Source: Dehalococcoides sp. JdFR-54
GTDB lineage: Bacteria; Chloroflexota; Dehalococcoidia; JdFR-54
NCBI GenBank assembly: GCA_002011475.1
Contig: MTNP01000037.1
Coordinates: forward strand, 33,191 to 75,549
Direction of reading: 5' to 3'
Length of the DNA stretch: 42,359 bases
Positions within the stretch are counted from its first letter, which is position 1. The number at the start of each line of letters is the position of its first letter. Positions 10,812-29,116 of the stretch are shown one piece after another. The notes beneath the pieces were generated by a model. It had not been told where the DNA came from. It was given only the letters and a program-made list of their open reading frames with translations, and searched no databases. Position numbers and translations under genes: made by a program.

Positions 10812-10909
10812 CTATGCCGCCTTGCTTGCAGAATGGTGCGGCCGTGCTCAGCTTTGAGTTTGTTGGCTGCAAAACAATTGAAAAGTGTGAAACCACAATG
10901 TAAGCCTTG

Positions 10910-10938
10910 TTGACAGAGCTTGCCCCCTAAAGTATCCT
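10910..10938 (+). promoter_or_regulatory. Promoter for the nucleotidyltransferase/phosphatidyltransferase operon
   Basis: TTGACA at 10910-10915 and TATCCT at 10933-10938 with a 17-base spacer. The transcript would have a ~95-nt leader before the ATG at 11040. The leader contains AAGGAGGT at 11021-11028; no further structured element was recognised in it. Confidence 0.7.
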
Positions 10939-11039
10939 GAATCGATGGACTGCGCGCCAAACAGTTCGTCGTAGGCAGTGTTCTGATCATCCCTGGTTGC
11001 CAAAAGTACAATGTCGCCCCAAGGAGGTACAACTATATC

Positions 11040-11762: not shown

Positions 11763-11771
11763 GGGGTGGGG

Positions 11772-12386: not shown

Positions 12387-12426
12387 CCGAAAGCGCGATC
12401 TCGACGGGGCTACGAGGGGCTTTCGG
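12387..12426. terminator. Inverted repeat between convergent genes
   Basis: CCGAAAGC at 12387-12394 and GCTTTCGG at 12419-12426 are perfect 8-base arms with a 24-base loop, lying between the convergent phosphatidyltransferase and giant-protein genes and running into the latter's 3' end. No T-tract is seen; a bidirectional terminator is possible. Confidence 0.3.
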
Positions 12427-15400
12427 CCTTCCCCAAGTTCATTCCCACTAACACCAGGTCATAGATATCCACTACCTGGTCACCATTAATGTCTGCCGTC
12501 TCATCGCCGGGCGGCGAGGTGTTGAAGTTGGCTGCTATTGTCACCAGGTCATAAATGTCTATGACGCCGTTGCCATCGGCATCGCCAGCGAGCAAGGTAA
12601 CCGGGGGAAGGGGCTTTATCTTCCCAGCCTCACCCACTACAGCGCTTTTCGTGATAGACAGGTAACCAGGCATGGTAATGGCAATAGTGTGGGGGACTCC
12701 CGGCGGAGCCGGGATGAAGTAATTGCCCTCCACGTCGCTGATAGTGGTCACGGGCTCGCCATCGATGAGGAGTGTCGGCCCATCGTGGTGGCTGCGCCCT
12801 TGCAGAAGCACCTGACCACTAATGACGGTGGCATCAAGACCAAATAGTTCGACATCCCCGCTGCCCGTCTCTATGGGCACTTCGTTTGCTTGTATATCTC
12901 CCACGATAACGTTCGATAGATCGAGGGGCGCGGTTCCGCTCGTGGTTCCGGCTCTTAGGGTAATTATGGCAAAGGTCCCGGGCGAGGAGACGCTTGCCCC
13001 TGGAGTGATGACCACGCCCACCACACCGGTGACGGTCCCGGCATCGTTATCTATGGCCCCGGGCTGGAAGAACGTGCTTGCTCCGTCTTGACTGAGCAGG
13101 TCTCCTTCCTCCACGTCGACCACTGTCACCAGCGTGGCATCAAAGCTGAGGTCAAATTGGGCACCGGCTATGGCAACCTTGGGCTCTATGACCACATTCA
13201 CCGTAAATGTCTCCCCCGGGGGGACTGCTTGACTAATTGGGGAGATGTTGACAGTCGTCACCTCTTGGGCGGATATCGCTCCAGCAAAGGCGCCAGCAAT
13301 CGTGATATGGGTCCAGTTTTGACCTATCAGGATCATGTCCAAGGCATTAATGCTTCCATCCCTGTTGACGTCCTCCCGGATCCAGTGGGGCGCCCCGGTC
13401 TCACCCCAGTGCTGCCCTACCCTGATCATATCCAGGACATTGACCCTTTTATCGCAGTTTACATCCCAGTCCGCATAGGGCAGGATGGTGACGCTCCCAT
13501 CGTGTACAATGATGGGCATGGCGCGCCCTTGCGCGTCTCCCACTATAAAGTTTGTCAAGTCCAGCAGCGCGGTGGTTGTTTCTGTCACCGTCTTGGCTCT
13601 TAGGCTGATGATGGCGAGCGTCCCCGGGGAGGCTACTGTCTCCCCGGGCCCTGTTATGGCGCCGGCGACACCGCTGACCCTCCCGGCGCCGTTATCTATA
13701 GTCCCCGGGAAGAAATATGTACTGGCTCCATCTTGATTCAGCAGGTCCCCCTCTTCTATCTTATCTACGGCCACAAGCAAGGGGTCGAAGCTGAGGTCGA
13801 ATTGGGCACCGGCTATGGCGAATTTTGGCTCTATCACTACTTCCACAGTGAACGACATTTCATAGGCAACCTCTTGGCTCGGCGGCGAGATGCTGACTAT
13901 GGTCGCCTCCGGAACGATGGTTATTGTCTCGCTCCTCGTTCCTGACGCCCCCTCGCTGTCGGTAACCGTTAAGGTTACAGTGTAATCGCCGGGGCTTGAA
14001 TAAGAATGCGTGGCCACTTTTTCTACGGTCGGTTGTTCTGGCGAGTAGGTGAAGATGACGCTGGGGCTCCCATCCCCGAAGTCCCATGCGTAAGACTCGA
14101 TAAAGCTATCCACATCGTAAGAGGCTGAGGCGTCGAATGTTATAGGTTGCCCCACAATCAGGTCTTCCGCCGGGTAGGTGAAGGAGGCGACCGGGGGTTG
14201 ATTGGTTGTTACGATGAAATCATACCGTATAGCGGTGTTGTTATCTTCGTAAGACTCGTTCACCAAATTGTCTGGGTCTACAATCACATATAGGTCGTAA
14301 TCCCCGGAGGTCGTTGCCCAGGTAACAGATACCTCAGCGCTTTGCCCAGCTAGGAGTTGTGCAACGCTCGGCGCGCCTATCAGGATTCCGCTCTCGCCGG
14401 GGTCTCCCGCATAGAATTCAACGGTGGTGGCCTGGCTCAGGGCACGACCCCTATTATAGACAGTCGCCCTTATCTCAACCTCGTCGCCTTCCTTGGGAAA
14501 GGCATCGCTGACTCCGATATCGGAAACGGTGAGGTCGGGCAATCTCAGCAGCGACACGGATTGTTGGGTTTGGCAGGAGTTACCCACATCGTCTTTGGCC
14601 TCTATCTTATAGGTTAAGCCCATTGCTGGCAGAGGTCCGATGGTCGCCTGCCATTTGCCTATGTCTATACGCTCCATGGGCTCGACGTAGTAAACACTCA
14701 GGGTGACGCCCTCCACCTCGTCAATAGGGTCGTGCGGGTCATAGGCTGGGGCAGTCCTCGCCAGTTTTCCTAGGGCATATTTGCCGGGAGGGATTTCAAC
14801 GGGGAAAATCTCGGCACCTGGGATGTAAGGGGCACATTGGGTCCTGAGTTCAATGGGCACGCCAGCGGTGGTTTTGAAGTCCGTTATGACCGCGGTCTCG
14901 TTGCCGCTATTATATATCCTGTAGTATATGGTGTATTCGGTGTTCTCCACCACCGTGGAGGGGAAGATCGTTTCCACAATCAAATCGCCAATCTGCCACC
15001 ACTCGGGCCACATCGAGGGGTCTTCTTTGTCGGTGAATTTGAACACCCGGGTTGATTCCTGGAACACCATGATCATCTTCTTGATCAACATTAGACCCGA
15101 GGTCTGGGATGTAAAGTACAATGGCACAGTGGGCAGGAACCCCTTTATAGCGGTCGAGAGGTCTGGCGTGACATCTATGGTGTCGAAAACCCCGGAATAT
15201 GTCCATTCGATCTCGCCGTCAGCGCCGACATCCAGTGCGGGATCCCCTGGAAACGGAGGCAACCCTTGCAACGCCAAGGATGATCTAAGTATTAGCTCGG
15301 GTTTTTCGGGGAGGGTCATCTCCGCCTTGGCCGCCAAATCCGGGAGAACGAACTCCAGCACCTCCCCAGCTATATCCCTGACGACGTTCACCCGCATGCC

Positions 15401-18400
15401 TGGCAGCGCTGTGGAGCCGGTATCGTATGCGTAGGCCAGCTTCACCTCCCAGTCGCCCTCGCTCATATACCTGTTGAATTCGGACATGTGGGTGCGGAAT
15501 GACCGCAGACACTCCTCCCATTCCTCCTGGGTCATATCACCCTTGATGGTCTCCGTCAGATACTGCTCAAACCCCTCCATATCGCCTATGTAATTATAGA
15601 ACTGTGTCAGGCAGGCCTCCCATTGCTCGGGGCTTATATAGGGTTTGAACTTCGCCAGTGCCGTCTCCAAGTCAGCCTTAGCGATGAAGATCTGGGCCTG
15701 GATAACCAGGGGCTCAAATGCTGCCGGCCTAGCTGGACTCACCAACTCAGACGTCATATTTACGCCGAGATATCCCTCTATGACCCTTAGCGTGGAGGCC
15801 TTGGTATTTGCCACCCTTGGGTCCTTCTTGAGGAATGCCGTGGTCTCTATAGGTATGGAGCCTGGGGCCTCTGTTTTGATTTTGATGGGCAGCTTTGTCT
15901 CAATGCCAGGGACGACGAGAGATTCCGCAGTCGTCGTATTATGCAACACGGCGCTTATTATTTCATATTTTGAGGTGTCTATGAGCAAAGTGGCGTAGGG
16001 ATCGAGCCACAATAGGATATTCTTCAATAATTTGTCATAGCCGGTCAGGCCAAAGGTGGTATACACCACCTTGCCCATATCAAATATGGTGCCACTCTCA
16101 ATCACCACGGGGTTTACAGGCCTTTTCCGGAATTCCACAGCCAGTTCTTCCGCGGTTAGCTCATAAACGTCTGGCACCTCTTCATAGGTGGCGGCTATAA
16201 CAGTCCAGCCCATCAGCTTTATCGCATCTATTTCCTGGTCTATCACGTCCTCCGCCCTGCCAAAGTCCCGAGCCTGCAACTCGGTGGGGAATTCCCCAGA
16301 GCCGGTTATGATGGGGTGCAATCGCATTTCCTCTGGGATAAAAACCGGCAGTTTGCTGGAGCGGGCAGGACTTATGGTGATATCAGGCAAGAAGGCATAT
16401 CCCTTTCTGGTGCCATACCATCCCGCCCCATCGACGATGAGCCTCCCGCCACTGGCGACGAAGGATTTGAGCCTGTCACCGACCTCTTGCATTGTAATCG
16501 ATGGGTAAACGGGATAATAGGTATCTGGCATCCCCCCGATTATGCCATCTATGGGAAGGGGGAGATGATCGAAATCTGCCCAGCGGTAAGGCAAAATGAG
16601 GAGCTGATAAGTGACAGCGTCCCAGGGTATCTCGTCGGGGCTTATCTTTTCTGGCCTGTATCCGTACCGGCTCAACTTCTCCAGCCATCTCTCTGCGTTG
16701 GAGCCGGGCAGATGGATGACGGCGATCCTCGCCCTCGGCGGCTCATATTCCAACTCAAATCTGAACCGATACTCCCTTGTCTCGGCGATATATTGGTCTA
16801 ACGGTATTTCGATGTCGGTCGTCCCCGGCTGAAGCGGGGATTCATTTATCTTTTGCATGTCCAGGTATGTAACCAGGCTTACAGTCACGTTGTCCCTGTT
16901 CTCCACCCGAAGCTCGAGCTGGGGGCTTCCGTCTATCATGGTTACATTTGCCTTGACCAGGGCGGGGATGGGCTTGTTTAAGGCAATCACCGGCGGGAAA
17001 CCGTATTCATCACTGCCGAGCCCGCTCAGATGGGCCACGTAAACCGCCTGCTTTATGCCGGTATTGCTTAAGACCATGTCAATCGTCGAGGGGAGCCCAC
17101 TTATCACCCGGTTCAGATCTCTGGTAAGCTGCTCCACGCCATGCAAGGGCTGGATGGTCGTCTTTACCGTATCCAGATGTATCGCCTCCAGGATCGCCAC
17201 CCTGTTGCCCTTGTCATTCATATACACGATTCTAATCCGGTGCTCCCCCGCTGGGAGCGTGCCCAAGAACAGGCTCTTATTCGTGTAGGATTCATCGCCC
17301 TTATGATAGAACAGCGTCCCCTTGTATCTGCCATCAATGTATACCAGCAATACTATGCCCTCTACATCCCCCGGTGGCATATCCTTGGCCTTTACGGTGA
17401 GCATGAAGTAATCCGAGTCCACCGTGGTGGTGACATACTCCACCCAGTCTCCATCGGCCGATAGGACAAAATTCTCGCTCGTCGCCGGGCCACCCAGTCC
17501 ATCTTGACGGGAGTAGTCGTGATAATATTGACCGACCTTTTCAATGGCGGTGAGGGGGCTTATATCATCGACCTTGAACAATCTGAAGTAATCGATGTAT
17601 TGCTGCCGATATGGCAGATGACCGCGATATTTTAGCTTCAGGGTGTGGGGGCCAGCACATACATCGTTCAATTTCAGGCGGAGGCGCGCATATCCGGAGC
17701 TCTCGGGGATCAGCTCGATCTTGAGGATCAGGTCATCGAAACTGGTATCATCCCCCTCTTCATACCTGAAATAATATAGGCCAGGGGCGGCCTTTTCGAT
17801 CCTGAAGATTTTGGCGACATCCTCTTGCCTCAGCTCCGCGATGTCCTCTGGCCTCAGCCTCAGCTCCGCCCAGGTCTTGACGCCTTCCACCCCGGGATTG
17901 TAAAAATAGGGGTAATTGTCGCACTCATCCCCTATCCCATCCCCATCACTATCTTCCTGGTCGGGATTGCTCACAAAGGGGCAGTTGTCCTCGGTATCGG
18001 GGATTCCGTCTCCGTCAGTGTCGGCATCTGCGGATAGCCTCGCCTGCCATATCTGGGGCAAGGTGGGCACCTCACCGTCGTAGCAGATATAAAAGCACAG
18101 CTCCGAATCCTTTTCAAAAGGACCGATCAAACCCTGGAGCCCCTGCTTCAGGCTCCCGTAGTAATGGGCGATTACGGGACTTGTGAGTGACACCAATAAG
18201 GTTTTAGCTGTTTCCAGTCTGGTTATTGTCAGCCTGGCATAGCTATCCTTTGCTATTAGTATCTCATCGGTGCCAAAGCCTTCCTCTATATTCGCCATTA
18301 AGGCCACATCCTTTAGCTCATCATCCAGGTATATCTCAATGGCATTGCCGAGCTGAGCCGTGGTGGGACTCAAAATTCCGCCGCTATATAGCTCGCGGAC

Positions 18401-20737
18401 GTCGATGTAGGAGGCCGTCCTCAGGTCAAGCTCATAGTCCCCGCTTCTGGGTATGAATATGTCGTAGCTCACCCAGTCCCCATCCCGCTCCAGCTTTATC
18501 GCCCTTGAACCCTGGAAGTATGTGGGGGTATAGGTTGTCGAGGCTTGGTCATAATCCTCCGCCTCGATTATGGCAGCGGCCACATCGTCTGTGGGGTCAA
18601 GGGGATTCAGGGTGAGCTGGACCTCGACGCTGTCGCTCAATCCGCCCCCATCCGTATCCCATAAGAGCGGATTGGTGAGGTGGGTGTGAATCTCGTCATA
18701 ATCTGTTAGGCCGTCAGCATCGGTATCCGGACTGAACGGGTTGGTACCCAGGGTCTCTTCGATCCGGTCTACAATCCCATCGCCATCTGTATCTGAGGTG
18801 AATATGAAGGAGAGCTTATCGCCGCCTTTCAGCCTTAGGGTATCAAAGAGGTCGATGTAGGCTCTGTGTTCTTGCTTTTCGGGGGAGGTGCCACCCCGCT
18901 CGTAAACAGTGGCCCATATCCTGCCACCGCCGATATACAGGCCATCTAGCCCCAACAAATACCCACCGGCTATGTCATAATCGCTGATAACCCCGGCTCT
19001 GACCAATTGATCGAGCAGGCGGGTAATGCCTATGCCATTCCTCTTATCCACATTGGCCACCACAAAGGCCTTCTTTATCAGGCCGTCGCCCTCATCGATG
19101 ATGACCTGGACGGTCGAGCCGAATATATTGGCCCTGTAGTAGGCCCAGTCATTGTGGTATTCATCCTCTAGCTCCAGAGGGTCGGCAAATTCCACCCTGA
19201 AGCCTTGGCCACTGTCTATGGCTTCTATAGCCTCTATTCCAGTAACGTGGAACTCGATAAACTCATGAGCCCTATCACCTGGTGCCAGGGTTTTACCTTC
19301 TGGGAAGTCACTGATGCCCCATATTATCTCGCTCCTCTTATAAGGGATGGCCGAGTTCCCCAAAAACAGGTTGAAGTAAAGGTTCTTGACCGTGGCTGCC
19401 ACCTCTCCCCTATTTTCGATATAGGCGCCGGTGTAAATTATCCCGCCATCCACATATTTGGCGAAGGTCTCCCTCGATTCGAAGTTCCTCTGGATGGCAT
19501 TTCTGGCTGCCTCTACTGTGGCCACCTCCGATGCCTCTGTGATGGCTTGACTCTCGCTGGTTGCGGTGGCCACCTCCTCGGTGGTGGCCGTGGTTTGGGA
19601 AATGCTTTCCTGGGTCTCCTGCCTCAGGGTCTCAGAGACCGACTGGGCGATCTCCGAGGCCCGTGTCGAAATAGCGGTTTCGGCCTGCCGGTAGGATTCC
19701 GTCTGGGTTATCTCTTCGGTCAAGGCTTGAGAGTTCGCCCTCACATTTTCGCTGGCATGGGTTCGGGTGGTCTCCTCGGTGGCGGTCTTCGTGGTTTCAT
19801 AGGTGGCCTCGGCGGAGGCCGTAGCGGTGACACTGGCACTGACACTGCCCCCAGGGGGGAAAATGGATGCCTCCGCCTCAACCGTAGCCTCTATCGAAGC
19901 GGAAACGGTCTCGGAGTTCGTCTCGCTAAATGTAGTACCTACAGTGTTGCTTATGGAGCTGGCAACGCTGTTTATTTCCTCTTGGGATAATGTTATCCCC
20001 CTCGCCTGGGCCGCCTCCCTCACCATTTCCCTGGTATTTTCCTCGGAAAACTCCTCCCTCACAGTTTGGGTCAATTGCTGGGTTACTTCCTGGGCAAACG
20101 TCTGACAGAAGGTACGGGTTTCCTCCCGGCTCCGACTTACAGAATTGGCCACCTCCTGGGCTATCTCATTGGTCGCCGATCTGGCGTAGGCCTCCGAACG
20201 GGTACTGGTGGTCTCATAGGTCATCGTGTCGCCTTCGATATACTCCTGGATGTATTCCATCTTGCCGGTAAGCGTGATCTTGACCTGGGGGTCCACCGTT
20301 ATGGAGAAGATGGGGATATTGGCAATGAAGGGACAACGCCAGGTTGTCCCTTCTGTCCAGCTGGTAAGCTCCTGGTAGTCATCAACGCCATCGAAATCGG
20401 AATCCGGCTGGGTCGGGTTGGTTCCTAATTGAACCTCTGCACCATCATATAGCCCAGGATTCCCTTGAGAGTCGTTATCGGAGTCGATGCTGAGGGGGTC
20501 ACTCTTGTATATCTTGATCTCCTCCCCATCGGTCAAGCCGTCCCCATCGGTGTCAGCATCGTCGGGCTCGGTATGATACTTATAGGCCTCCTCCCAATCG
20601 GTCAAGCCATCTCCATCCGTATCCAGGGTGTTATCTTGGGCGTATACGACAAAGGATGCACCATTAACGGATATGGACATCAGCAGCGATATGGCCAGGG
20701 CGATGGCTAGAAATCGGCTTTTCTTACCCCGCATCAT
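12410..20737 (-). CDS. Giant secreted multidomain protein with type-3 Ca repeats, CBM-like, CARDB, PKD, two cohesin-like and two dockerin-like modules
   Basis: 2,775 residues. The N-terminus (MMRGKKSRFLAIALAISLLM..., cleavage near VVYAQD) is a signal peptide, so the protein is exported. Approximate order: DTDGDGLTDWEE-type calcium repeats (37-125); a very Ala/Thr/Ser/Glu-rich, probably helical region (174-422); an unassigned beta-rich region (423-640); more calcium repeats (646-725); a CBM6-like module (719-870); DTDGDGIPD/DSDGDGIGD repeats (904-950); a second CBM-like module (~1070-1190); a GATase-like fold (~1330-1560); CARDB-like and CARDB domains (1907-2172); PKD with SYAWDFGDG (2177-2275); cohesin-like 1 (2281-2420); dockerin-like pair DVNCDKRVNVLDM/DVNRDGSINALDM (2421-2480); cohesin-like 2 (2492-2632); a carboxypeptidase-regulatory-like fold; a C-terminal dockerin (DADGNGVIDIYDL/DINGDQVVDIYDL). 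No catalytic domain, sortase motif or C-terminal membrane anchor was recognised. A scaffold or adhesive surface role is inferred. Confidence 0.93.
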   Translation of the reverse strand: MMRGKKSRFLAIALAISLLMSISVNGASFVVYAQDNTLDTDGDGLTDWEEAYKYHTEPDDADTDGDGLTDGEEIKIYKSDPLSIDSDNDSQGNPGLYDGAEVQLGTNPTQPDSDFDGVDDYQELTSWTEGTTWRCPFIANIPIFSITVDPQVKITLTGKMEYIQEYIEGDTMTYETTSTRSEAYARSATNEIAQEVANSVSRSREETRTFCQTFAQEVTQQLTQTVREEFSEENTREMVREAAQARGITLSQEEINSVASSISNTVGTTFSETNSETVSASIEATVEAEASIFPPGGSVSASVTATASAEATYETTKTATEETTRTHASENVRANSQALTEEITQTESYRQAETAISTRASEIAQSVSETLRQETQESISQTTATTEEVATATSESQAITEASEVATVEAARNAIQRNFESRETFAKYVDGGIIYTGAYIENRGEVAATVKNLYFNLFLGNSAIPYKRSEIIWGISDFPEGKTLAPGDRAHEFIEFHVTGIEAIEAIDSGQGFRVEFADPLELEDEYHNDWAYYRANIFGSTVQVIIDEGDGLIKKAFVVANVDKRNGIGITRLLDQLVRAGVISDYDIAGGYLLGLDGLYIGGGRIWATVYERGGTSPEKQEHRAYIDLFDTLRLKGGDKLSFIFTSDTDGDGIVDRIEETLGTNPFSPDTDADGLTDYDEIHTHLTNPLLWDTDGGGLSDSVEVQLTLNPLDPTDDVAAAIIEAEDYDQASTTYTPTYFQGSRAIKLERDGDWVSYDIFIPRSGDYELDLRTASYIDVRELYSGGILSPTTAQLGNAIEIYLDDELKDVALMANIEEGFGTDEILIAKDSYARLTITRLETAKTLLVSLTSPVIAHYYGSLKQGLQGLIGPFEKDSELCFYICYDGEVPTLPQIWQARLSADADTDGDGIPDTEDNCPFVSNPDQEDSDGDGIGDECDNYPYFYNPGVEGVKTWAELRLRPEDIAELRQEDVAKIFRIEKAAPGLYYFRYEEGDDTSFDDLILKIELIPESSGYARLRLKLNDVCAGPHTLKLKYRGHLPYRQQYIDYFRLFKVDDISPLTAIEKVGQYYHDYSRQDGLGGPATSENFVLSADGDWVEYVTTTVDSDYFMLTVKAKDMPPGDVEGIVLLVYIDGRYKGTLFYHKGDESYTNKSLFLGTLPAGEHRIRIVYMNDKGNRVAILEAIHLDTVKTTIQPLHGVEQLTRDLNRVISGLPSTIDMVLSNTGIKQAVYVAHLSGLGSDEYGFPPVIALNKPIPALVKANVTMIDGSPQLELRVENRDNVTVSLVTYLDMQKINESPLQPGTTDIEIPLDQYIAETREYRFRFELEYEPPRARIAVIHLPGSNAERWLEKLSRYGYRPEKISPDEIPWDAVTYQLLILPYRWADFDHLPLPIDGIIGGMPDTYYPVYPSITMQEVGDRLKSFVASGGRLIVDGAGWYGTRKGYAFLPDITISPARSSKLPVFIPEEMRLHPIITGSGEFPTELQARDFGRAEDVIDQEIDAIKLMGWTVIAATYEEVPDVYELTAEELAVEFRKRPVNPVVIESGTIFDMGKVVYTTFGLTGYDKLLKNILLWLDPYATLLIDTSKYEIISAVLHNTTTAESLVVPGIETKLPIKIKTEAPGSIPIETTAFLKKDPRVANTKASTLRVIEGYLGVNMTSELVSPARPAAFEPLVIQAQIFIAKADLETALAKFKPYISPEQWEACLTQFYNYIGDMEGFEQYLTETIKGDMTQEEWEECLRSFRTHMSEFNRYMSEGDWEVKLAYAYDTGSTALPGMRVNVVRDIAGEVLEFVLPDLAAKAEMTLPEKPELILRSSLALQGLPPFPGDPALDVGADGEIEWTYSGVFDTIDVTPDLSTAIKGFLPTVPLYFTSQTSGLMLIKKMIMVFQESTRVFKFTDKEDPSMWPEWWQIGDLIVETIFPSTVVENTEYTIYYRIYNSGNETAVITDFKTTAGVPIELRTQCAPYIPGAEIFPVEIPPGKYALGKLARTAPAYDPHDPIDEVEGVTLSVYYVEPMERIDIGKWQATIGPLPAMGLTYKIEAKDDVGNSCQTQQSVSLLRLPDLTVSDIGVSDAFPKEGDEVEIRATVYNRGRALSQATTVEFYAGDPGESGILIGAPSVAQLLAGQSAEVSVTWATTSGDYDLYVIVDPDNLVNESYEDNNTAIRYDFIVTTNQPPVASFTYPAEDLIVGQPITFDASASYDVDSFIESYAWDFGDGSPSVIFTYSPEQPTVEKVATHSYSSPGDYTVTLTVTDSEGASGTRSETITIVPEATIVSISPPSQEVAYEMSFTVEVVIEPKFAIAGAQFDLSFDPLLVAVDKIEEGDLLNQDGASTYFFPGTIDNGAGRVSGVAGAITGPGETVASPGTLAIISLRAKTVTETTTALLDLTNFIVGDAQGRAMPIIVHDGSVTILPYADWDVNCDKRVNVLDMIRVGQHWGETGAPHWIREDVNRDGSINALDMILIGQNWTHITIAGAFAGAISAQEVTTVNISPISQAVPPGETFTVNVVIEPKVAIAGAQFDLSFDATLVTVVDVEEGDLLSQDGASTFFQPGAIDNDAGTVTGVVGVVITPGASVSSPGTFAIITLRAGTTSGTAPLDLSNVIVGDIQANEVPIETGSGDVELFGLDATVISGQVLLQGRSHHDGPTLLIDGEPVTTISDVEGNYFIPAPPGVPHTIAITMPGYLSITKSAVVGEAGKIKPLPPVTLLAGDADGNGVIDIYDLVTIAANFNTSPPGDETADINGDQVVDIYDLVLVGMNLGKAESPS
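12845..13895 (-). repeat. Internal tandem duplication encoding two cohesin-like modules
   Basis: Two ~410-base units (about 13483-13895 and 12845-13262) encode near-identical modules: both contain AIAGAQFDLSFD, EEGDLL, QDGAST and GTIDN/GAIDN, and the DNA still shares stretches such as those at 13154-13172 and 13800-13818. A dockerin-like pair separates them. Confidence 0.8.
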
Positions 20738-20815
20738 ACCCCTCCCTTGAATCGAGGCCCTAAATCCGAGGCTTTTAAAACGCGGTCAAACCCCTTGGCC
20801 AACAATCATACTTCA

Positions 20816-20844
20816 AGGTTAAGACTAAAGGCCTTCATTGTCAA
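20816..20844 (-). promoter_or_regulatory. Promoter of the giant secreted protein gene
   Basis: On the minus strand TTGACA (20844-20839) and TAACCT (20821-20816) are 17 bases apart. A leader of ~70 nt leads to ATGATG at 20737 behind GGGAGGGG. The same TAACCT -10 occurs at the lexA promoter. Confidence 0.7.
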
Positions 20845-20917
20845 GCGAAGCGAGTCGATTTGCCATCGGGTTTCAAATTCTTAAGCCCAGTGGCGAGATT
20901 GAAGCTGGCGAGCTGCC

Positions 20918-21376
20918 TCAAGACCTTTCTGTTTTTGCCAATTTCTTGGCCTTGTTGATGGCGGCTTCGATCAACCCCGGAATGGGGTCGGGGGGCACAA
21001 AACCCACAGCTTTTCTCGCATTGAACCTGTGGGCCAGCCGATAGGCCAGGAGATAGGTCAGGGGCTTTGTCTGGTTGGTCAGGTGATCGGCCGCCAAATG
21101 CACACCATACCCTGCGCTGGCAGCTATGAGGTAGGGGTTCCAAGCGGTAAGCCAACAAAAGACTATCAGCAGCGCCAGGACCTCCCAGGCGTACAGGATG
21201 AGGACAAAGGTCCGGCGAGTATTCTTCAGGGACCAGATCACATAGTCCAGGATGTGATCCGCGTCAATTAATACCCCGGCAGCCAGGCACAACAGGGCTG
21301 GAAACACTGACCAAGCAGCCAATCCAATGCCGGCGCTTATGGGCGTGGAGACAATGAGGTGAGAGGTTGGTCGCAT
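20918..21376 (-). CDS. Integral membrane protein, DUF457/YdjM-like putative metal-dependent hydrolase
   Basis: 152 residues with about four membrane helices. Two histidine/aspartate motifs typical of the membrane-bound YdjM/DUF457 group are seen: GVLIDADHILDYV near residue 40 and HLAADHLTN near residue 97; the N-terminal THLIVS adds another His. The family is predicted to bind a metal within the membrane, but its reaction is not established. The C-terminus is a Lys-rich cytoplasmic tail (AAINKAKKLAKTERS). It lies 32 nt downstream of the DUF1616 gene on the same strand, so they probably share a transcript, and ~180 nt upstream of the giant gene's start. Confidence 0.7.
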   Translation of the reverse strand: MRPTSHLIVSTPISAGIGLAAWSVFPALLCLAAGVLIDADHILDYVIWSLKNTRRTFVLILYAWEVLALLIVFCWLTAWNPYLIAASAGYGVHLAADHLTNQTKPLTYLLAYRLAHRFNARKAVGFVPPDPIPGLIEAAINKAKKLAKTERS

Positions 21377-21408
21377 TTGGGGTCATTCCTCAAGGGATCT
21401 CATTGGCC

Positions 21409-22245
21409 CTAAATTCCCTCCAGCACATCGACCTGAAGGCGAAGCGCCTGATAAGGCTCTGGGCTCGCCCCTTTAAACAGGAGGAACTCCACCTCCCGGT
21501 CGGGCCCCGCCCTGGTGGGGGCGAAGCTCACTTCCTGCTCCCATTTCCCCCCATGGTCCAGGGTGATAGGTCCGATCTCTCCGGCCCTTTCCCCGTCAAT
21601 GGTTATCTCTACCTTGTAGATTGTGGTCTCATGCTCCCGGTTCACCAGCCCCAGGATTACCCTGCCCTCCTCCCCCAAGATAATCTTGCGGGGGTAGCCT
21701 TCCGCCTTCCCCTCCAGGCCCAGGATATAGAACTCGGTAAATTTCTCTTCCGCCTTAGGGGATGCTATGACGCAGGTCAGGGCCCCCAGGGCGCCCATTA
21801 TCGCCATGACCACGAGGAGGCCGAGCAGCCTATCCCAACGGCCCTGGCACGCCCAAGAACGGGATAACAGCTTGAGATGGATGCCAAGCTGAGGCTGGAA
21901 GCGTTCCTCGGGCGAAAGCCTATGCCGCCGATACCAGGCGATGGCTGCCATCACGGCGATGAACAGGAGCAGGGAAATCAGGATGGGGTAGAGGCCAATG
22001 CCCCAGGGGGTGTAGTTCAGAACGAGTCCCATCAGCGGCACCACGGCGATGGAAAGTCCGAAACTGAGGGCCAGGCGTTCAATGCCACTCAGGTTGCCCT
22101 TGTGGGGGAACAACGCCGCGACGACGGTGTAGCCAGGGAAGAAGAGGACAAAGAGAAGGCCGAGGACGATGCGCAAAGGCCCTGTGGCCAGGACCACTAG
22201 GGGCACCAGCAATAGCGAGAGGGCTATGATGATAACTAGGTCCAC
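21409..22245 (-). CDS. DUF1616 membrane protein
   Basis: 278 residues. The N-terminal half has four membrane helices, with the family's hallmark ...GPLRIVLGLLFVLFFPGYT and the following ERLALSFGLSIAVVPLMGL. One further helix near residue 150 leads to an exterior beta-sandwich beginning TEFYILGLEGKAEGYP and ending EVEFLLFKG. DUF1616 proteins are known from archaea and some bacteria and are often found near surface polysaccharide genes; their biochemical role is unknown. The soluble domain is clearly homologous to the separate 159-residue protein encoded at 23970. The start is the ATG at 22245, preceded by GGGGGG. Confidence 0.83.
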   Translation of the reverse strand: MDLVIIIALSLLLVPLVVLATGPLRIVLGLLFVLFFPGYTVVAALFPHKGNLSGIERLALSFGLSIAVVPLMGLVLNYTPWGIGLYPILISLLLFIAVMAAIAWYRRHRLSPEERFQPQLGIHLKLLSRSWACQGRWDRLLGLLVVMAIMGALGALTCVIASPKAEEKFTEFYILGLEGKAEGYPRKIILGEEGRVILGLVNREHETTIYKVEITIDGERAGEIGPITLDHGGKWEQEVSFAPTRAGPDREVEFLLFKGASPEPYQALRLQVDVLEGI

Positions 22246-22356
22246 AAATCCCCCCTATCTGGTATCACCCTGCTTGAGCCCCCGCGGACATCCTTTACCC
22301 GAGACCCTATTTAGTATAAACTGAGACCTGAGATACCCGCAAGCGAAGTCGAGCCG

Positions 22357-23973
22357 ATGAGGATAATATACCGGCACTCCCGGCCATGGGCCCTCCTGAG
22401 CCTAGCCCAAGAATCATGGGCAAAGCACACGCCCTTACTTCGGGTCGCCGCCATCATGGGGATCCTCCTTTTCAGTTTCTGGGCGGGCATGGGCCCCCAC
22501 TGGGATTACAGGTATCCGCTTCACGTGGACGAATGGTTTGCCCTGGGCTTTACCCAGAGCATGCTCGAAGACGGCTCCCTTCAATATACGACCCCTTATG
22601 GGCGGGGGGAGATCAGCTATCACCCCGAGATGGGGTTTCACCTGCTACTGGGGTTCCTCAAGACCATCACAGGCCTCTCCTGGATGGGACTGTACCGGGT
22701 TGCACCGGGGGCGATGGTCGCCTTGCTGGCCTTCCTGGTATATGCCCTGGGCCGCCGTGACGGGTTCGGGTGGGCTGCTGCGCTCTTTGTGCCATTGATA
22801 CCCACCTCCATACGGACCCTCGGCCCCACCTTTCTGGTGCCCGTCTCGGCGGCGATGATTTTCATCCCAGTGACTCTCCTGGTGCTGCACAGGCTGGAGG
22901 CCAGGGGCATGGGGCAATCCCTCTGGCTATTGTTGATCCTTATCGGCGGCACCATCTTCGTTCACCCACCTACTGAGGGGGTCGTCACCGCCCTTGCGGC
23001 GCTCTACCTCGCGGCCCTGATGGCGGAGGCTCTGGCCGTGCGGCGCTATCGCGCGGCGACGAACCTCGTGGCTGCGGTCGGGGTTCGGATGCTCATCCCC
23101 ATCATCGTGCTGGGCGTGTGGTTGCCTTCCGTCAGCAAAAGCACGCTGGAACGGGCAGTGGCCGGTGACCCCGGCATAAGCAGGTATTTGGGCTTCAATG
23201 CCGGCTTTTTTGAAGCGTTCGGGGTTATCGCCGTGGCCCTATTCGTTTGGGGTATCTTCATATTTGTATTGGACCGCCGATATGGTCTCCGGACCTATGT
23301 CTTGCCTGTGCTTACAGTTTTTCTCCTATTGTTCTTGAACTTCGTGTATCCGCGATATCAACTGGGCCCCAGCATTCTTTACGAACGAGGCTGGTCTTAC
23401 CTTGGCCTGTTCATGGCGATCCTGGCTGGTTACGGCGTCGCCTCCTTCTTCCGCTCTGTCCCCGCACTCTCCAAAAGTATGGAGGCCCTCGTGTCGCATC
23501 GCTTCTCAGGCTGGACGCGTGTCATTTGCATCGGTGTGGGCATAGCCGTCGTCGCTGCCGCCCTCACCACGGGCTTGTTCAACGAGCAGCGAGGCGATTA
23601 CGCCCGCTATTACCATATGATGGATGACCAGGTATACGCCGATTTCGTCTGGCTTGGCCAGCATACCGCCCCGGGACATAAGGTGGTCATGATGGAGCCA
23701 AGCCTGGCCTGGGCCTATCCGCCCATTGCTGGCCCTGGGAACATGGTCTCCGGAGCAGCCTCCGCTCCTTTCCGCACGAAATGGGCAAAGCAGGTGCGAG
23801 AAGTGCTTATTACCGGCAATGTTGACACTGAGTGGCTTAGACAACAGGGCGTCTCAGTGCTCTACACCGGTTTGCCCGGGAGCCAGAAGTATGCGCCAAT
23901 CAAAAATAGCGAACTGCTCGAAGTTCGCCCCGGGGTCTACCTCGTTCCCGCTGAGAGGGCAGGTGAGCATTGA
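22357..23973 (+). CDS. Polytopic membrane protein, GT-C glycosyltransferase-like
   Basis: 538 residues with about ten hydrophobic helices and a C-terminal soluble domain (YADFVWLGQHTAPGHKVVM... to VYLVPAE). An acidic first-loop motif, YPLHVDEWFA near residue 55, resembles the Asp/Glu-bearing loop of GT-C enzymes that use polyprenyl-phosphate sugars; a second segment, FVHPPTEG, follows helix six. The overall plan suggests a glycosyltransferase or oligosaccharyl-transfer role in the envelope, but this is inference from architecture. The start is the ATG at 22357, preceded only by weak GAG elements. The stop overlaps the TTG start of the next gene. Confidence 0.65.
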   Translation: MRIIYRHSRPWALLSLAQESWAKHTPLLRVAAIMGILLFSFWAGMGPHWDYRYPLHVDEWFALGFTQSMLEDGSLQYTTPYGRGEISYHPEMGFHLLLGFLKTITGLSWMGLYRVAPGAMVALLAFLVYALGRRDGFGWAAALFVPLIPTSIRTLGPTFLVPVSAAMIFIPVTLLVLHRLEARGMGQSLWLLLILIGGTIFVHPPTEGVVTALAALYLAALMAEALAVRRYRAATNLVAAVGVRMLIPIIVLGVWLPSVSKSTLERAVAGDPGISRYLGFNAGFFEAFGVIAVALFVWGIFIFVLDRRYGLRTYVLPVLTVFLLLFLNFVYPRYQLGPSILYERGWSYLGLFMAILAGYGVASFFRSVPALSKSMEALVSHRFSGWTRVICIGVGIAVVAAALTTGLFNEQRGDYARYYHMMDDQVYADFVWLGQHTAPGHKVVMMEPSLAWAYPPIAGPGNMVSGAASAPFRTKWAKQVREVLITGNVDTEWLRQQGVSVLYTGLPGSQKYAPIKNSELLEVRPGVYLVPAERAGEH

Positions 23974-24449
23974 TACCTTCGCTTACAACCACAGCCCGAA
24001 GCCGCTGGGACAAGGCTCTGACGGTGCTTTTGGTCGTAGCAGTGCTGGGGGCTATCGGCTCCCTCGTGTATGTGACAGCCACGCCGAGGGTGGGGGAGAG
24101 GTTCACCGAGTTCTACATCTTGGGCCCGCAGGGGAAGGCCGAGGACTACCCCAAAGTGCTTGTCCTCGGAGAAAAGGCCGTGGTGAGGTTGGGGATAGTA
24201 AATCACGAACACGAGACAACGGACTACAGGGTGGAGATAACTATCGACGGGGAAAAGGTAAGCGAGATAGGGTCGATCGCCTTAAAGCACGAGGGGAAGT
24301 GGGAGCAGCCAATAACCTTCTCGCCCACAAGGGCCGGCGCCCACCAGAAGGTGGAGTTTTCGCTCTACAAGGGTGAGGACACCGAGCCCTATCGAAAGGT
24401 CTACCTGTGGATAACTGTCATGGAGGAGTGGGTCGAGTCCGGTTCATAG
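23970..24449 (+). CDS. Single-span protein carrying the DUF1616 C-terminal beta domain
   Basis: 159 residues: one N-terminal membrane helix (ALTVLLVVAVLGAIGSLVYV) followed by a beta-rich domain nearly collinear with residues ~150-278 of the DUF1616 protein at 21409-22245 (shared RFTEFYILG, GKAE-YP, HEHETT-Y-VEITIDGE, GKWEQ and SPTRAG/APTRAG). It lacks the four-helix N-terminal module. It starts at a TTG overlapping the upstream stop codon by two bases, implying coupling to the GT-C-like gene. Probably an envelope-exposed accessory subunit; function unknown. Confidence 0.8.
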   Translation: MIPSLTTTARSRWDKALTVLLVVAVLGAIGSLVYVTATPRVGERFTEFYILGPQGKAEDYPKVLVLGEKAVVRLGIVNHEHETTDYRVEITIDGEKVSEIGSIALKHEGKWEQPITFSPTRAGAHQKVEFSLYKGEDTEPYRKVYLWITVMEEWVESGS

Positions 24450-24531
24450 CGCCCTCCTTTATACACGGCACAAGATTATGTTTCAGATTGGAAGGGGGGA
24501 AGGGGATAATAATAGTCCAAACCCTTAGCCT

Positions 24532-25971
24532 TTATTGGCGCTCTTTATAAAAATCTCTTATTAATCTTATCTCATCGGGACCAAAAACTCTGAGCAGGTA
24601 TAAGAGCACACCGTAGGAAAGTATAGCCCCAAGCACGATTATAAATACGTTAGTAGTTATAAAATCAAAGCCGTAGACGATTATGCCCATGATCAGCGCT
24701 GCAGCTAAAGGTTTTAAGATAACCCTGTGCATGGGCAAGCGGTATAAGTGTCTTTGAAGGTAATGATAATACAATACGAAAATCGTTAACTCGGTGGCAA
24801 CTGTGGCCACTGCTGCCCCAATGTAGCTATAAGGGGGGATTAATAAGAGATTTAAGATTATATTTAATAATGCCCCGATACCCATATTTCTGACACTTAT
24901 CCATTGCTTGTCAATGGAAGCCATCGTGTGACCGGCAAGGGAGGTCAAAAATATCAATGAGACGGCCCAGACCAGAATCTGCAATGCGATCACTGAATTG
25001 GCGAAGCCTGCCCCATATAGTAAGGCTATGACCTTATCTGCCACCAGGGTTGTGCCAATGCCAAGTGGTATGGCCAGGATGAGCAAATACTTGAATGATT
25101 TTTCATAGGTTATCCTCAGGCTGTCCTTTGAGGACTTGAAGTATCTTGATAGGAGGGGATAGAGGGAGCCGATAAAGGCAGCGGGAATGAACATTAGTGC
25201 CAAGACCAATTGATATGCGGCATTATACCAGCCAACGACCGCATCTCCCTTCATTACGGAGAGCATGACGCTATCTATCTGGAAGTAAATCGTTAAGAAA
25301 ATCGCCATTAGGCCGAAAGGAAGCGCAGCTTTGATCAGTTGTTTGGCGAGGGGTATGTCAAGCGATAATTCGGGTGCGGTGAATCTCTTAATAACAATCG
25401 CTAGACTGAATAAGGACATTAAAAATCGAGCTACCAGAATTACAGAAACTAGCTCTAGTAGCCCATATCCCAGAAATAATACTGTCAGGCCGGCTCCGAT
25501 GACTAACGTCTCCTCTACAATTCTAGTCATCATCTCGTATTCCATTCTTTCAAAGGCGCGGAATATCGACCTAAAGAATTGGGTAAAGGAGCTAAAAACT
25601 ACGATAAGTCCGACAATGTAAACTGTTTGAGTCGTGTCTTGAGGGTAGTCCATTAAATTGATTACGATGACGATTAAAGCAAAAGTAATCAGGGACAGGA
25701 TCGCTTTGACGATCGATACGTTACTCAAATATTTGCTGGCCTTTGATTTATCTCGTGCGATCTCCCTTATGCTTAAGATACTTAGGCCGAAATCGGAGAA
25801 AATTATGAACAGAGAGGTAAATGCGAATGCGAAAGCGTACTTGCCGTAGCCGATATCACCTAATTCTCTGGCAATAAAAATGATGAGCACTAAATGCAGT
25901 AATCTGCTGACTATGTCTCCTAAAAATAAAAAGCTGCTATTTATAGCAACCCTTCTCGCTGCGCTTGCCAT
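24532..25971 (-). CDS. Polysaccharide/oligosaccharide flippase (MATE/MOP superfamily, Wzx-like)
   Basis: 479 residues with 12-14 membrane helices. The start MASAARRVAINSSFLFLGDI leads into the polysaccharide-synthesis-type pattern, with LGDIGYGKYAFAFAF and FSDFGLSILSIREIAR, typical of Wzx-like transporters that flip lipid-linked sugars across the membrane. It starts 3 nt after the stop of the DegT-family gene, without a visible Shine-Dalgarno, so translation is probably coupled. Base composition is clearly AT-richer than in neighbours on both sides, suggesting separate ancestry. It fits export of the deoxysugar-containing glycan whose precursors the two upstream genes would make. Confidence 0.9.
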   Translation of the reverse strand: MASAARRVAINSSFLFLGDIVSRLLHLVLIIFIARELGDIGYGKYAFAFAFTSLFIIFSDFGLSILSIREIARDKSKASKYLSNVSIVKAILSLITFALIVIVINLMDYPQDTTQTVYIVGLIVVFSSFTQFFRSIFRAFERMEYEMMTRIVEETLVIGAGLTVLFLGYGLLELVSVILVARFLMSLFSLAIVIKRFTAPELSLDIPLAKQLIKAALPFGLMAIFLTIYFQIDSVMLSVMKGDAVVGWYNAAYQLVLALMFIPAAFIGSLYPLLSRYFKSSKDSLRITYEKSFKYLLILAIPLGIGTTLVADKVIALLYGAGFANSVIALQILVWAVSLIFLTSLAGHTMASIDKQWISVRNMGIGALLNIILNLLLIPPYSYIGAAVATVATELTIFVLYYHYLQRHLYRLPMHRVILKPLAAALIMGIIVYGFDFITTNVFIIVLGAILSYGVLLYLLRVFGPDEIRLIRDFYKERQ

Positions 25972-25974
25972 TAG

Positions 25975-27201
25975 CTATCCTGCTGCTTTATCAATTACTT
26001 CCTTAAAGGTTCTAACGATATAAGCTAAATCCTCCTCTTCCAAATATTGGTGGCAGCCGATGTAGAAGCCGTTCTTCCCAAGATAATCGGCATTGGGCAA
26101 TTTGCCTTCATATTCCTTTTTCAAATGGCTATACGCGGGTTGTTGTGTGGGGATGCAGCCAAACAGTGGCCTTGTCTCTATGCCACGCTCTTCGAGCTCT
26201 TGGCGTAGCTTCTTCCGTGAAAATCTTTGCGGGTCCTTTATAACGATGGGATATGCCAGATAACTAACCGTATCCATAAACTTGGGCAACTGCAACACAT
26301 CGGAAAACCCCTTTAACCCCTCATTCAAATATTTCACATTTTCACGCCTTCGCTCAGCTATCCAATCGGCCTTCTTCATTTGAGTTATTGCCAATGCCGC
26401 TTGAAATTCCATGGCCTTGAAGTTATAGCCTATCAATTCATGTGCGAACCTGGGGTCGAAGTCCTCCTCCCCCTTGTAATTTTTCAATCGGGGGCATTTG
26501 CCCTGGGACCGCTGGCATATCGGGCAATCACACATTCGCCCATGGGCCTTGATCTTCTTGATGAGGCGAGCAATCTTGGCATCGTTTGTGACCACAATCC
26601 CCATCTCGCCAGCCTGTATGTTATGGGCAATGTAAAAGGAAAAGATAGATAATAATGAGAGTGACCCAGTTTTTTTGCCCTTGTAGACTGTCCCATGTGC
26701 CTGTGCTGAGTCCTCAAAGGTTACGAGTCCGTATCTCTCGGCGATCTTATTGATTTCATCCATGTCACATGGATAACCCATTAAATGAACAGGGAGGATA
26801 AATGAATACCGGTCGATATCATCGACCCTTTCAAGATGCTCTTTGATGCTTTGCGGTGTTATCAGGAAGGTCTCAGGATCGACATCGACATAGACTGGAT
26901 CGAACCCGGTGGTCACCAAAGCATTGCTGGTGGCGATATAGGTTAAGGGGGTGGTTATCACCTTTGTGCCATGCTTAACATTTATACCTTCATGGTGTAT
27001 GATGGCTGCCATTCCAGCCATCAGCGCCGCTGTCCCGGAGCTAACCGCCACTGCGTACTCAGTTCCGACATACTCGGCAAATGTCTTCTCAAACTCTCTG
27101 ACCTTGGCACCCTCTGATATTCGCCCGCTATCTAGAACCTCGTTTACCGCCCTTTTCTCCTCCTCCCCGATTTTAAAATCGCCAACGAAGATCCTTCTCA
27201 T
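25975..27201 (-). CDS. DegT/DnrJ/EryC1-family PLP enzyme, probable NDP-hexose 3-dehydrase (RfbH/ColD-type)
   Basis: 408 residues with the fold-type-I sugar aminotransferase pattern: SSGTAALMAGMAA, TPLTYIATSNAL, FEDSAQAHG. At the PLP site, where aminotransferases have SFYxxKN with the Schiff-base lysine, it has SFYIAHNIQAGE with His193. His at this position is the known signature of the 3-dehydrases ColD and RfbH (E1). A cysteine block C224-x-C226-x2-C229-x6-C236 lies 31 residues later, much as in E1, which binds a [2Fe-2S] cluster. Removal of the 3-hydroxyl from a 4-keto-6-deoxyhexose nucleotide is therefore inferred. The start overlaps the gmd-like stop by 4 nt (ATGA). It lies in the AT-rich block. 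Confidence 0.85.
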   Translation of the reverse strand: MRRIFVGDFKIGEEEKRAVNEVLDSGRISEGAKVREFEKTFAEYVGTEYAVAVSSGTAALMAGMAAIIHHEGINVKHGTKVITTPLTYIATSNALVTTGFDPVYVDVDPETFLITPQSIKEHLERVDDIDRYSFILPVHLMGYPCDMDEINKIAERYGLVTFEDSAQAHGTVYKGKKTGSLSLLSIFSFYIAHNIQAGEMGIVVTNDAKIARLIKKIKAHGRMCDCPICQRSQGKCPRLKNYKGEEDFDPRFAHELIGYNFKAMEFQAALAITQMKKADWIAERRRENVKYLNEGLKGFSDVLQLPKFMDTVSYLAYPIVIKDPQRFSRKKLRQELEERGIETRPLFGCIPTQQPAYSHLKKEYEGKLPNADYLGKNGFYIGCHQYLEEEDLAYIVRTFKEVIDKAAG

Positions 27202-28145
27202 ACCCTTTCTCTCCAGTAATTAAGTAGGTCTTCCATCGTTTTCTCAAAGGGTATCGTTGGCTTCCAGCCGGTTTGTTGTCTAAATTTTGAACAGTCGCCC
27301 TGGAGTATCGCGACATCGGAAGGTCTCATCCGAGAGGGGTCTTGTCTGACCTCGATATTTCTGTTGGCCATAGATAAAAGTAGATTCAAAACCTCGTGCA
27401 CCGTCCTCGTTTTTTCAGAGCAGATATTGTATACCTCGCCAAACTCGCATTTCTGCAGTGCCAACCAATATGCCCGTACAATATCCCTGACATCGGAGAA
27501 GTCTCTTTGAGCATCGAGATTGCCCACATAAATTATCGGCTCTTTCCCCTTTTCGATCTCGGCGATTTGCTTGGCGAAGCTTGAGGCTACGAATACCTCC
27601 CCTCTTCTCGGCCCAGTGTGATTGAAGGCGCGGGTAACCACAATTTTTAAGCCATAGGATTTGTGATATTGATAAGATAATTTGTCCTGGGCCACCTTGG
27701 AGACTCCGTAAGGGGAGAGGGGCCTTAGGGGGGCTGTTTCCCTAATGGGCAGCTCATGGGGGTAAACCATCCCGTATTCTTCGGAACTACCGGCAACATG
27801 AATTTTGGGATCTATATCCGATTTTCTAATTGCCTCAAATAGATGTATTGTCCCAATTACATTGGTCTCCATGGTATCCGCTGGAGCCCACCAACTCATC
27901 GGAACGAAGGATTGGGAAGCCAGATGGAAAATATAGTCCGGCCTCGATTCTCTTACAGCCCTCTCTAATGAATGGCCATCTCTCATGTCGGCATTGATCA
28001 ACTGAATATTGTTTTTGATGTGCTCTATATTGTCTAGTTTGCTTCTCCAGCGCGCTGTCCCATATACCTTCAGCCCTTCTTGCAGCAGATGTTCAGCCAG
28101 ATGACTCCCTACAAAACCTGTTATGCCAGTGATCAAGGCTCTCAT
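27198..28145 (-). CDS. GDP-mannose 4,6-dehydratase-like NAD-dependent sugar dehydratase/epimerase
   Basis: 315 residues of the extended SDR family. Seen: GITGFVGSHL (NAD loop), the GMD-like GTARWRSKLDNIEHI, ASQSFV, SSEEYG with the catalytic Ser/Glu, YGVSKVAQD (YxxxK) and the substrate loop FNHTGPRRGEVFV. This set is best matched by GDP-mannose 4,6-dehydratases and the related Rmd reductases, which form or use GDP-4-keto-6-deoxymannose. The first gene of the AT-rich operon, it begins behind AGGGGGG and would supply the substrate for the DegT-type dehydrase. Which of dehydratase or reductase it is cannot be settled by eye, but the context favours dehydratase. Confidence 0.82.
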   Translation of the reverse strand: MRALITGITGFVGSHLAEHLLQEGLKVYGTARWRSKLDNIEHIKNNIQLINADMRDGHSLERAVRESRPDYIFHLASQSFVPMSWWAPADTMETNVIGTIHLFEAIRKSDIDPKIHVAGSSEEYGMVYPHELPIRETAPLRPLSPYGVSKVAQDKLSYQYHKSYGLKIVVTRAFNHTGPRRGEVFVASSFAKQIAEIEKGKEPIIYVGNLDAQRDFSDVRDIVRAYWLALQKCEFGEVYNICSEKTRTVHEVLNLLLSMANRNIEVRQDPSRMRPSDVAILQGDCSKFRQQTGWKPTIPFEKTMEDLLNYWRERV

Positions 28146-28520
28146 TTTAATCCCCCCTGTTCAGTCCCTTATGGAAATCGGTAAAGTTCTTTAATGAACG
28201 CCAGATTGCGTCTGAGCTATAATACAACAAACAGGGAGAATTATGCTACAGGTCTTGCCCCGTCTCAAAAAATTTGACAGGGTTTTTAATCGTGTCAAAA
28301 TGGAGTCGCTCATTTAATAGCATTCTCGGGCGTCTCCAATTCAAAGCCTCGTGCTCTCTTTCCTCATTGTATCACCTTCTGCTCTTCCAGACTCGGCTTA
28401 AGTTCGGGTAGCGTCTGCGGGTCCTCCGCGGCAGCACTCCCGCTCCAAGGCGAGCACCAGCCTCTCATCGAGCTTTCCCTGGCCTCCGAGGTATTCTGCC
28501 CAGCTAGTACAAACAGGGGC
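28146..28520. other. Gene-free stretch right of the AT-rich block
   Basis: No convincing gene on either strand. It holds the upstream region of the gmd-like gene, a GTTC-N6-GAAC repeat near 28187, and a 7-base inverted repeat at 28273-28299. Composition changes from AT-rich to GC-rich at about 28390, which may mark a junction. Confidence 0.5.
28273..28299. repeat. Inverted repeat TTTGACA / TGTCAAA
   Basis: Arms 28273-28279 and 28293-28299 surround 13 bases, so each strand shows a TTGACA hexamer. No matching -10 was found at the right distance on either strand; it could be an operator or a chance repeat in AT-rich DNA. Confidence 0.4.
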
Positions 28521-28550
28521 TTGACGCCAAACGAAACGGGGTGTTATGAT
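28521..28550 (+). promoter_or_regulatory. Promoter of the tRNA cluster
   Basis: TTGACG at 28521-28526 and TATGAT at 28545-28550, spacer 18. Transcription would begin about 28557, enter the broken tRNA-Trp and continue through the tRNA-Leu, Gly, Cys and Leu genes. Confidence 0.65.
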
Positions 28551-28585
28551 ATTTGGTGGCACTGTGGAGGGCATCGATCTTCGAA

Positions 28586-28630
28586 CTCCAAAACCGCAGG
28601 TCGGGGGTTCGAATCCCTCCATTCCTGCCA
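28586..28630 (+). pseudogene. 3' fragment of a tRNA-Trp gene
   Basis: From the anticodon loop (CTCCAAA, anticodon CCA) through the anticodon 3' stem ACCGC, a complete T-arm with GGTTCGAATCC, acceptor strand CATTCCT, discriminator G and encoded CCA, this is a tRNA-Trp 3' half. The 5' half is missing: the expected GCGGT 5' stem is replaced by TCGAA, no D-arm is seen, and AGGAATG (the acceptor partner) does not occur nearby. The break falls at the anticodon loop, a common crossover point of tRNA-targeting integrases. Confidence 0.8.
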
Positions 28631-28634: not shown

Positions 28635-28720
28635 GCCGAGGTGGTGGAATGGTAGACACGCTGTCTTGAGGGGGCAGTGAGCGAAAGCTCGTAGGAGTTC
28701 GAGTCTCCTCCTCGGCACCA
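28635..28720 (+). tRNA. tRNA-Leu (GAG)
   Basis: 86 bases. The acceptor stem GCCGAGG/CCTCGGC closes the molecule, the anticodon stem CTGTC/GGCAG encloses TTGAGGG (anticodon GAG), a long class-II variable arm (TGAGCGAAAGCTCG) is present, and the T-loop is GTTCGAGTC. CCA is encoded. Confidence 0.95.
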
Positions 28721-28774: not shown

Positions 28775-28850
<76 letters not shown>

Positions 28851-28862
28851 GAAACTGGTCGA

Positions 28863-28935
28863 GGCGACGTGGCCAAGAGGTTAAGGCGGAGCTCTGCAAA
28901 AGCTCTATTCGGCGGTTCGAATCCGCCCGTCGCCT
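28863..28935 (+). tRNA. tRNA-Cys (GCA)
   Basis: 73 bases. Acceptor GGCGACG/CGTCGCC, anticodon stem GAGCT/AGCTC around CTGCAAA (anticodon GCA), discriminator T as expected for Cys. No CCA is encoded; a short T-run follows directly. Confidence 0.95.
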
Positions 28936-29006
28936 TTTTCGTTCTGGGCGTGGGTCTCTCGAGATGTGTCAGAAACTAGGTTCGGGGCTGATTTTGGGTC
29001 GAAAAA

Positions 29007-29091
29007 GCCGAGGTGGCGCAACCGGCAGACGCGGCGGACTTAAAATCCGCTGAGGGCCAACCTCATGCGGGTTCGAATCCCGCCCTCGGCA
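29007..29091 (+). tRNA. tRNA-Leu (UAA)
   Basis: 85 bases. Acceptor GCCGAGG/CCTCGGC, anticodon stem GCGGA/TCCGC around CTTAAAA (anticodon TAA), long variable arm, T-loop GTTCGAATC. No CCA is encoded, unlike the Leu-GAG and Gly genes of the same cluster. Confidence 0.95.
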
Positions 29092-29116
29092 CACTTTCCA
29101 TAGAGGTATCAGGCAC

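Follow-up and report, generated by a model that had tools for sequence, protein, structure and literature searches.

How does the 3' half of a tRNA-Trp gene come to stand, without its 5' half, directly in front of four intact tRNA genes in a member of the Dehalococcoidia? The locus is part of the window, by which we mean the whole analysed stretch of 42,359 nucleotides (G000:C1:33191-75549), and belongs to a MAG of 1.69 Mb in 67 contigs. The collection searched contains no other genome of the same genus, family or order, and comparisons were made at the level of the class (Dehalococcoidia); the nearest named relatives of the transketolase gene are Dehalococcoidia/Chloroflexota MAGs. Positions without a contig name are those of the window, and the tRNA region comprises:

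28586..28630, + strand: tRNA-Trp 3' fragment, bases 33-77, from the first anticodon-loop base to CCA (by alignment); putative attR
28635..28720, + strand: tRNA-Leu(GAG), first intact gene of the stranded half (ARAGORN, Rfam)
28775..28849, + strand: tRNA-Gly(GCC), with another copy on contig C3 (ARAGORN, Rfam)
28862..28936, + strand: tRNA-Cys(GCA) (ARAGORN, Rfam)
29007..29092, + strand: tRNA-Leu(TAA), last gene of the ancestral operon (ARAGORN, Rfam)

The fragment (CTCCAAAACCGCAGGTCGGGGGTTCGAATCCCTCCATTCCTGCCA) matches bases 33-77 of the genome's own tRNA-Trp at 44 of 45 positions, with a single C-to-T change, and its first base is also that of the 7-nt anticodon loop (CTCCAAA; stem GCGGT/ACCGC). 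Both ARAGORN and Rfam leave 28586-28630 without a tRNA call, and the only other feature there is an overlapping, mechanically derived ORF on the minus strand (28398-28850). The spacer between the fragment and tRNA-Leu(GAG) measures 4 nt, and most relatives have 1-10 nt at this place. The 60 nt to the left of the fragment do not resemble the missing 5' half, either in a local alignment (P=0.16) or in an alignment anchored at the junction (P=0.20). The original prediction had thus correctly described a tRNA-Trp piece running from the anticodon loop to CCA, an absent 5' half with the edge exactly at the loop, and four intact tRNAs behind it.

Such a fragment might also be what is left of a second tRNA-Trp gene, which arose by duplication of the whole gene and lost its 5' half, with no integration involved. 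The 5' half can be aligned with gaps to the sequence on the left, including a possible 7-nt repeat (TCGATCT/TCGAACT), yet both alignments are at chance level, and for this reason a degraded but complete tRNA-Trp, whose anticodon stem would contain a 7-nt tandem repeat, was rejected. Moreover, neutral decay would not keep one half 98% identical while erasing all resemblance in the other, nor would it stop sharply at the loop. Considering also the gene order described below, which shows an operon that was split and not duplicated, this origin is hardly credible.

An intact tRNA-Trp with the same 45-base end had been postulated to the left on the same strand, and it is indeed found on the same contig and + strand at C1:12387-12463, identical to the fragment at 44 of 45 positions of its 3' end. 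The fragment, located to the right of it, corresponds to C1:61776-61820, and the genome contains no further copy or fragment of tRNA-Trp. The distance from the CCA of the intact gene to the fragment is 49,312 bp, and the inserted block extends over C1:12464-61775, of which C1:12464-33190 precedes the window and the remainder is given by:

1..28585, no strand assigned: right 28.6 kb of the 49.3-kb block, bounded by the intact tRNA-Trp (C1:12463) and the fragment, and by composition

The AT-rich sugar block, which the original prediction had placed left of the fragment, is real (24532-28145), but it represents only the right 3.6 kb of the 49.3 kb. The sugar operon as the entire insert was rejected, since the left end is 49.3 kb away.

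The gene order in relatives, which it had been proposed to compare, reveals what was interrupted. Of 29 loci retrieved from relatives through the tRNA array, 27 show tRNA-Leu(GAG) behind tRNA-Trp in the same order, in 24 cases at a distance of no more than 40 nt; one of the remaining two has no tRNA-Trp within 1.5 kb, and the other ends at a contig edge. tRNA-Gly and tRNA-Cys follow in all 29 loci and tRNA-Leu(TAA) in many; upstream of tRNA-Trp, tRNA-Arg(CCT) is found in 15 loci, and tRNA-Ala(CGC) as well in 7. The unbroken order in Dehalococcoidia relatives is therefore Ala-Arg-Trp directly followed by Leu-Gly-Cys-Leu, whereas the window genome harbours Ala(CGC)-Arg(CCT)-Trp to the left of 49 kb, and the Trp fragment with Leu-Gly-Cys-Leu to the right. 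Since the halves of the operon lie either side of the 49 kb and the relatives possess the operon unsplit, the cut falls inside tRNA-Trp. In one relative (L061) the unsplit array is located upstream of the same transketolase genes that follow the array in the window genome, and thus the right flank is native. An empty site in relatives, a general criterion for tRNA islands, is found at the class level.

Some further observations concern the flanks. A TauE-family gene (C1:11437-12156, L021) lies between tRNA-Ala and tRNA-Arg, a pair that is close in several relatives. At its left end the contig carries two genes (C1:3-1321, L021) that are a few kb from the transketolase genes (30310-32220) in several relatives and 62 kb from them here, and therefore another rearrangement occurred. 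The ferredoxin-oxidoreductase pair at 6524-9045 has relatives at L061:12207-14743 (51% and 45% identity), which sit between transketolase and the tRNA array. Finally, a short ORF after tRNA-Leu(TAA) (29117-29239), read by eye, could encode a 40-aa basic peptide (MGKRGRFVNLNRFKFGKAIKRASKLRDDKRTTKAMTPRGR).

An operon cut inside tRNA-Trp, with its halves on either side and on the same strand, is what site-specific integration into a tRNA gene characteristically leaves behind, and tyrosine integrases that act at tRNA genes usually have the 7-bp anticodon loop as their overlap region (PMC8371274). We consider it very probable that the 49-kb block reflects site-specific integration into tRNA-Trp, which split the operon, and that the integrase has since been lost or replaced. 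In this process, a circular element with a copy of the tRNA-Trp 3' half (attP) would have recombined with the chromosomal tRNA-Trp (attB) across the 7-bp loop, most likely through a tyrosine integrase. The native 5' half and the 3' half of the element would have formed the intact gene at C1:12387-12463 (attL). The fragment at 28586-28630 is, with equally high probability within this explanation, the native 3' half of the original tRNA-Trp gene; it would have been left as attR, still before tRNA-Leu(GAG), and the operon Ala-Arg-Trp-Leu-Gly-Cys-Leu would have been split with 49.3 kb between its halves. Later loss or replacement of the integrase gene would have immobilised the island, a possibly composite set of metabolic and polysaccharide genes.

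The arrangement resembles the tRNA-plus-fragment signature of Islander-type islands in tRNA genes (PMC4383910). As in these islands, an intact tRNA gene and its cognate fragment (44/45) reside on the same replicon, the 3' fragment follows the intact gene in direct orientation (49.3 kb to its right, + strand), the length of the block falls within 2-200 kb, and the breakpoint is in the anticodon loop. Judged by the tRNA calls, the fragment also lies outside full-length tRNA genes and conserved domains, with the mechanical minus-strand ORF overlapping it. Unlike Islander islands, for which a tyrosine integrase (PF00589) in or overlapping the block is required, the block contains none.

The tyrosine recombinase that the original prediction had expected between the two tRNA-Trp copies was not found there, and the interval contains no recognisable integrase, excisionase, relaxase or phage gene. 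A six-frame search of the whole genome for PF00589 gave 7 matches, none of them in the block; PF07508 (serine recombinase) has no match in the block, and the window genome contains no member of the tRNA-Trp integrase family introduced below at E<=1e-50. A serine recombinase or another integrase of the genome was rejected as the agent, since the block harbours none and the integrases encoded elsewhere in the genome are only distantly related to the tRNA-Trp family. The integrase may have acted in trans, and mobility has been lost or was supplied in trans; because no integrase gene remains in the block, the block looks immobile. A single pattern scan of viral contigs gave no match to attP. The block is a tRNA-Trp integration product or remnant of a known kind, not an active island.

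A class-wide pattern search led to four further tRNA-Trp 3' fragments, in G179, G147, G113 and G292, which share the identical start CTCCAAA and are 100% identical to the tRNA-Trp of their own genome. Integrases of one family lie at most about 170 bp downstream of tRNA-Trp in G147, G113, G292, G084 and G050, and a same-family tyrosine integrase (PF14659 and PF00589) lies inside the island of G179; the expected catalytic residues (R, K, H-x-x-R, H, Y) are conserved in the three that were aligned. In G179 the two tRNA-Trp copies are 15.1 kb apart on a single contig. This 15-kb island (L175) of the same class has the same target gene, breakpoint and anatomy as the 49-kb block, but differs from it by its integrase, its type I restriction-modification system and its fully identical fragment, and the two share no cargo. 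The original prediction had tied the truncated tRNA to the sugar block, and a relative with the former and without the latter was to speak against it. Such relatives exist in these four genomes; as separate insertions that brought different cargo to the same site, they break the link to the sugar block, whereas the integration stands.

Both junctions are taken from the MAG assembly, and in a MAG of 67 contigs unrelated DNA could have been joined at the 45-bp repeat. Such an artefact would need two false joins 49 kb apart that leave the operon halves in perfect order and strand, and the same arrangement is present on the single contig of G179; we regard it as very improbable.

Other loci of the class show related configurations. 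In L191 (G113:C52, 13840 to 9858) 3.9 kb separate the Trp fragment from the tRNA-Leu(GAG)-Cys that follows it, and Ala-Trp and the integrase are on another contig, which is probably an independent split of the same operon. In L239 (G007:C89) a same-family integrase (about 899-1930) is located just downstream of tRNA-Leu(TAA) (2053-2138), the last tRNA of the operon, and suggests tRNA-Leu(TAA) as a second integration target in this array. In L237 (G166:C27) and L238 (G130:C146) same-family integrases immediately precede tRNA-Trp in the same orientation and may have arrived by integration into the next tRNA upstream.

Islands of Dehalococcoides occupy tRNA-Ala, -Val, -Lys and ssrA (PMC2764846, PMC3146451). 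Like the 49-kb block, they are found in the same class at structural RNA genes, are bordered by 3' direct repeats and carry metabolic cargo. They differ in their target genes, and those at ssrA use serine recombinases and insert in the T-loop, whereas the target here is tRNA-Trp and the block lacks PF07508. The text of PMC2764846 does not name tRNA-Trp, and no earlier description of an anticodon-loop tRNA-Trp site for Dehalococcoidia was found in the literature.

The cargo in the window includes:

28..12386, no strand assigned: 2-oxoacid:ferredoxin oxidoreductase genes, an enolase-family enzyme, a URO-D/corrinoid protein pair, a nucleotidyltransferase and a CDP-alcohol phosphatidyltransferase (Pfam, NCBIfam)
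12410..20737, - strand: 2775-aa surface-type protein with CARDB, PKD, TSP3, dockerin and cohesin domains (Pfam)
24532..28145, - strand: AT-rich polysaccharide genes at the right end of the block, GC 0.43-0.47 (Pfam, NCBIfam), namely
24532-25971, - strand: flippase (Pfam, NCBIfam)
25975-27201, - strand: DegT-type aminotransferase (Pfam, NCBIfam)
27198-28145, - strand: GDP-mannose-4,6-dehydratase-like enzyme (Pfam, NCBIfam)

Further genes of the block code for a hydrolase, NAD synthase, NrpR, DNA ligase/Ku, MmgE/PrpD, IlvD and DUF1616 proteins, and for what we take, by eye, to be an RtcA-like protein. The end of the hydrolase gene lies 40 bp beyond the intact tRNA-Trp, at the place that the integrase takes in relatives; like the lack of recognised mobility genes, this speaks against the integration explanation. 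The GC content of the block is 0.574, compared with 0.632 in the left and 0.603 in the right flank, and the GC3 of its genes is 0.70 versus 0.77 outside (P=2e-6, an optimistic value, as neighbouring genes are not independent). The shift is mild except at the AT-rich right end, which forms the strongest break.

While entry of all 49 kb in a single step would fit this integration, a smaller element might have produced the 45-bp duplication, with most of the 49 kb arriving later by transposition, homologous recombination or translocation of host genes, after deletion of the integrase. This is a variant of the integration explanation, with the same scar and a different cargo history, and we deem it a serious though not the favoured possibility. 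The absence of mobility genes agrees with it, as do the patchy GC (0.44-0.63 per 2 kb), sugar genes far more AT-rich than the rest, and a NAD synthase-NrpR pair that other members of the class also conserve, with no further block genes nearby. Both ends, however, fit one integration, no second junction is marked internally, and the genome holds no further Trp fragment. NAD synthase, apparently present once in the genome by nucleotide search, is odd cargo for a mobile element and counts against the preferred reading, integration of the block into tRNA-Trp. The NAD synthase-NrpR genes are 83-85% identical in nucleotides to those of G026 and G052, where right-flank housekeeping genes reach 67-73%; recent transfer of the pair was dropped as evidence, since it is conserved across many genomes and may evolve slowly. 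L242 (G026:C121, 8503-12603) has two NrpR genes around NAD synthase, with 54% and 89% identity to the block NrpR. The metabolic cargo may be of composite origin.

Integration into tRNA-Trp would have separated the right half of the operon from the native promoters, which remained with the left half (11/12 match just before tRNA-Ala). Because a nucleotide search of the assembly finds no second tRNA-Cys, the right half must be expressed. The original prediction had placed a strong promoter just before the fragment, and a promoter-like site is present there:

28521..28550, + strand: predicted sigma-70-type extended -10 promoter (TTGACG-18-TATGAT with TGn), just inside the right end and directed toward the stranded tRNAs

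An equally good site is expected by chance in about 0.3% of 100-nt stretches on C1 with TGn, and in 1.1% without TGn. It is the forward promoter-like site nearest the junction (another lies at 28274-28301) and, judged from its motifs, the simplest promoter source for the stranded half, whose transcripts would most likely begin there and carry the Trp fragment as their leader. A search of 200 bp around the other fragments found no outward promoter in G179, G147 and G113, and a weak one in G292; hence, the promoter is not a general feature of the tRNA-Trp site. It is conceivable, if unlikely, that an element which uses a gene within a multi-tRNA operon persists only where its right end supplies the cut-off half with an outward-facing promoter. 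The promoter here, which lies 36 bp inside attR and would drive, among others, what appears to be the sole tRNA-Cys gene, would then be a selected part of the attachment region, a proposal we make with considerable doubt, and on the same speculative footing it could help to fix the island and permit loss of the integrase.

The locus thus presents a tRNA operon that was cut in two and apparently rescued by a predicted promoter at the edge of the island. A 49-kb accessory block, in a lineage that is alone of its order in the collection searched, has now been given base-exact ends, and the tRNA-Trp anticodon loop emerges as a place where integration has recurred within the Dehalococcoidia, in addition to the tRNA-Ala, -Val, -Lys and ssrA sites of Dehalococcoides.
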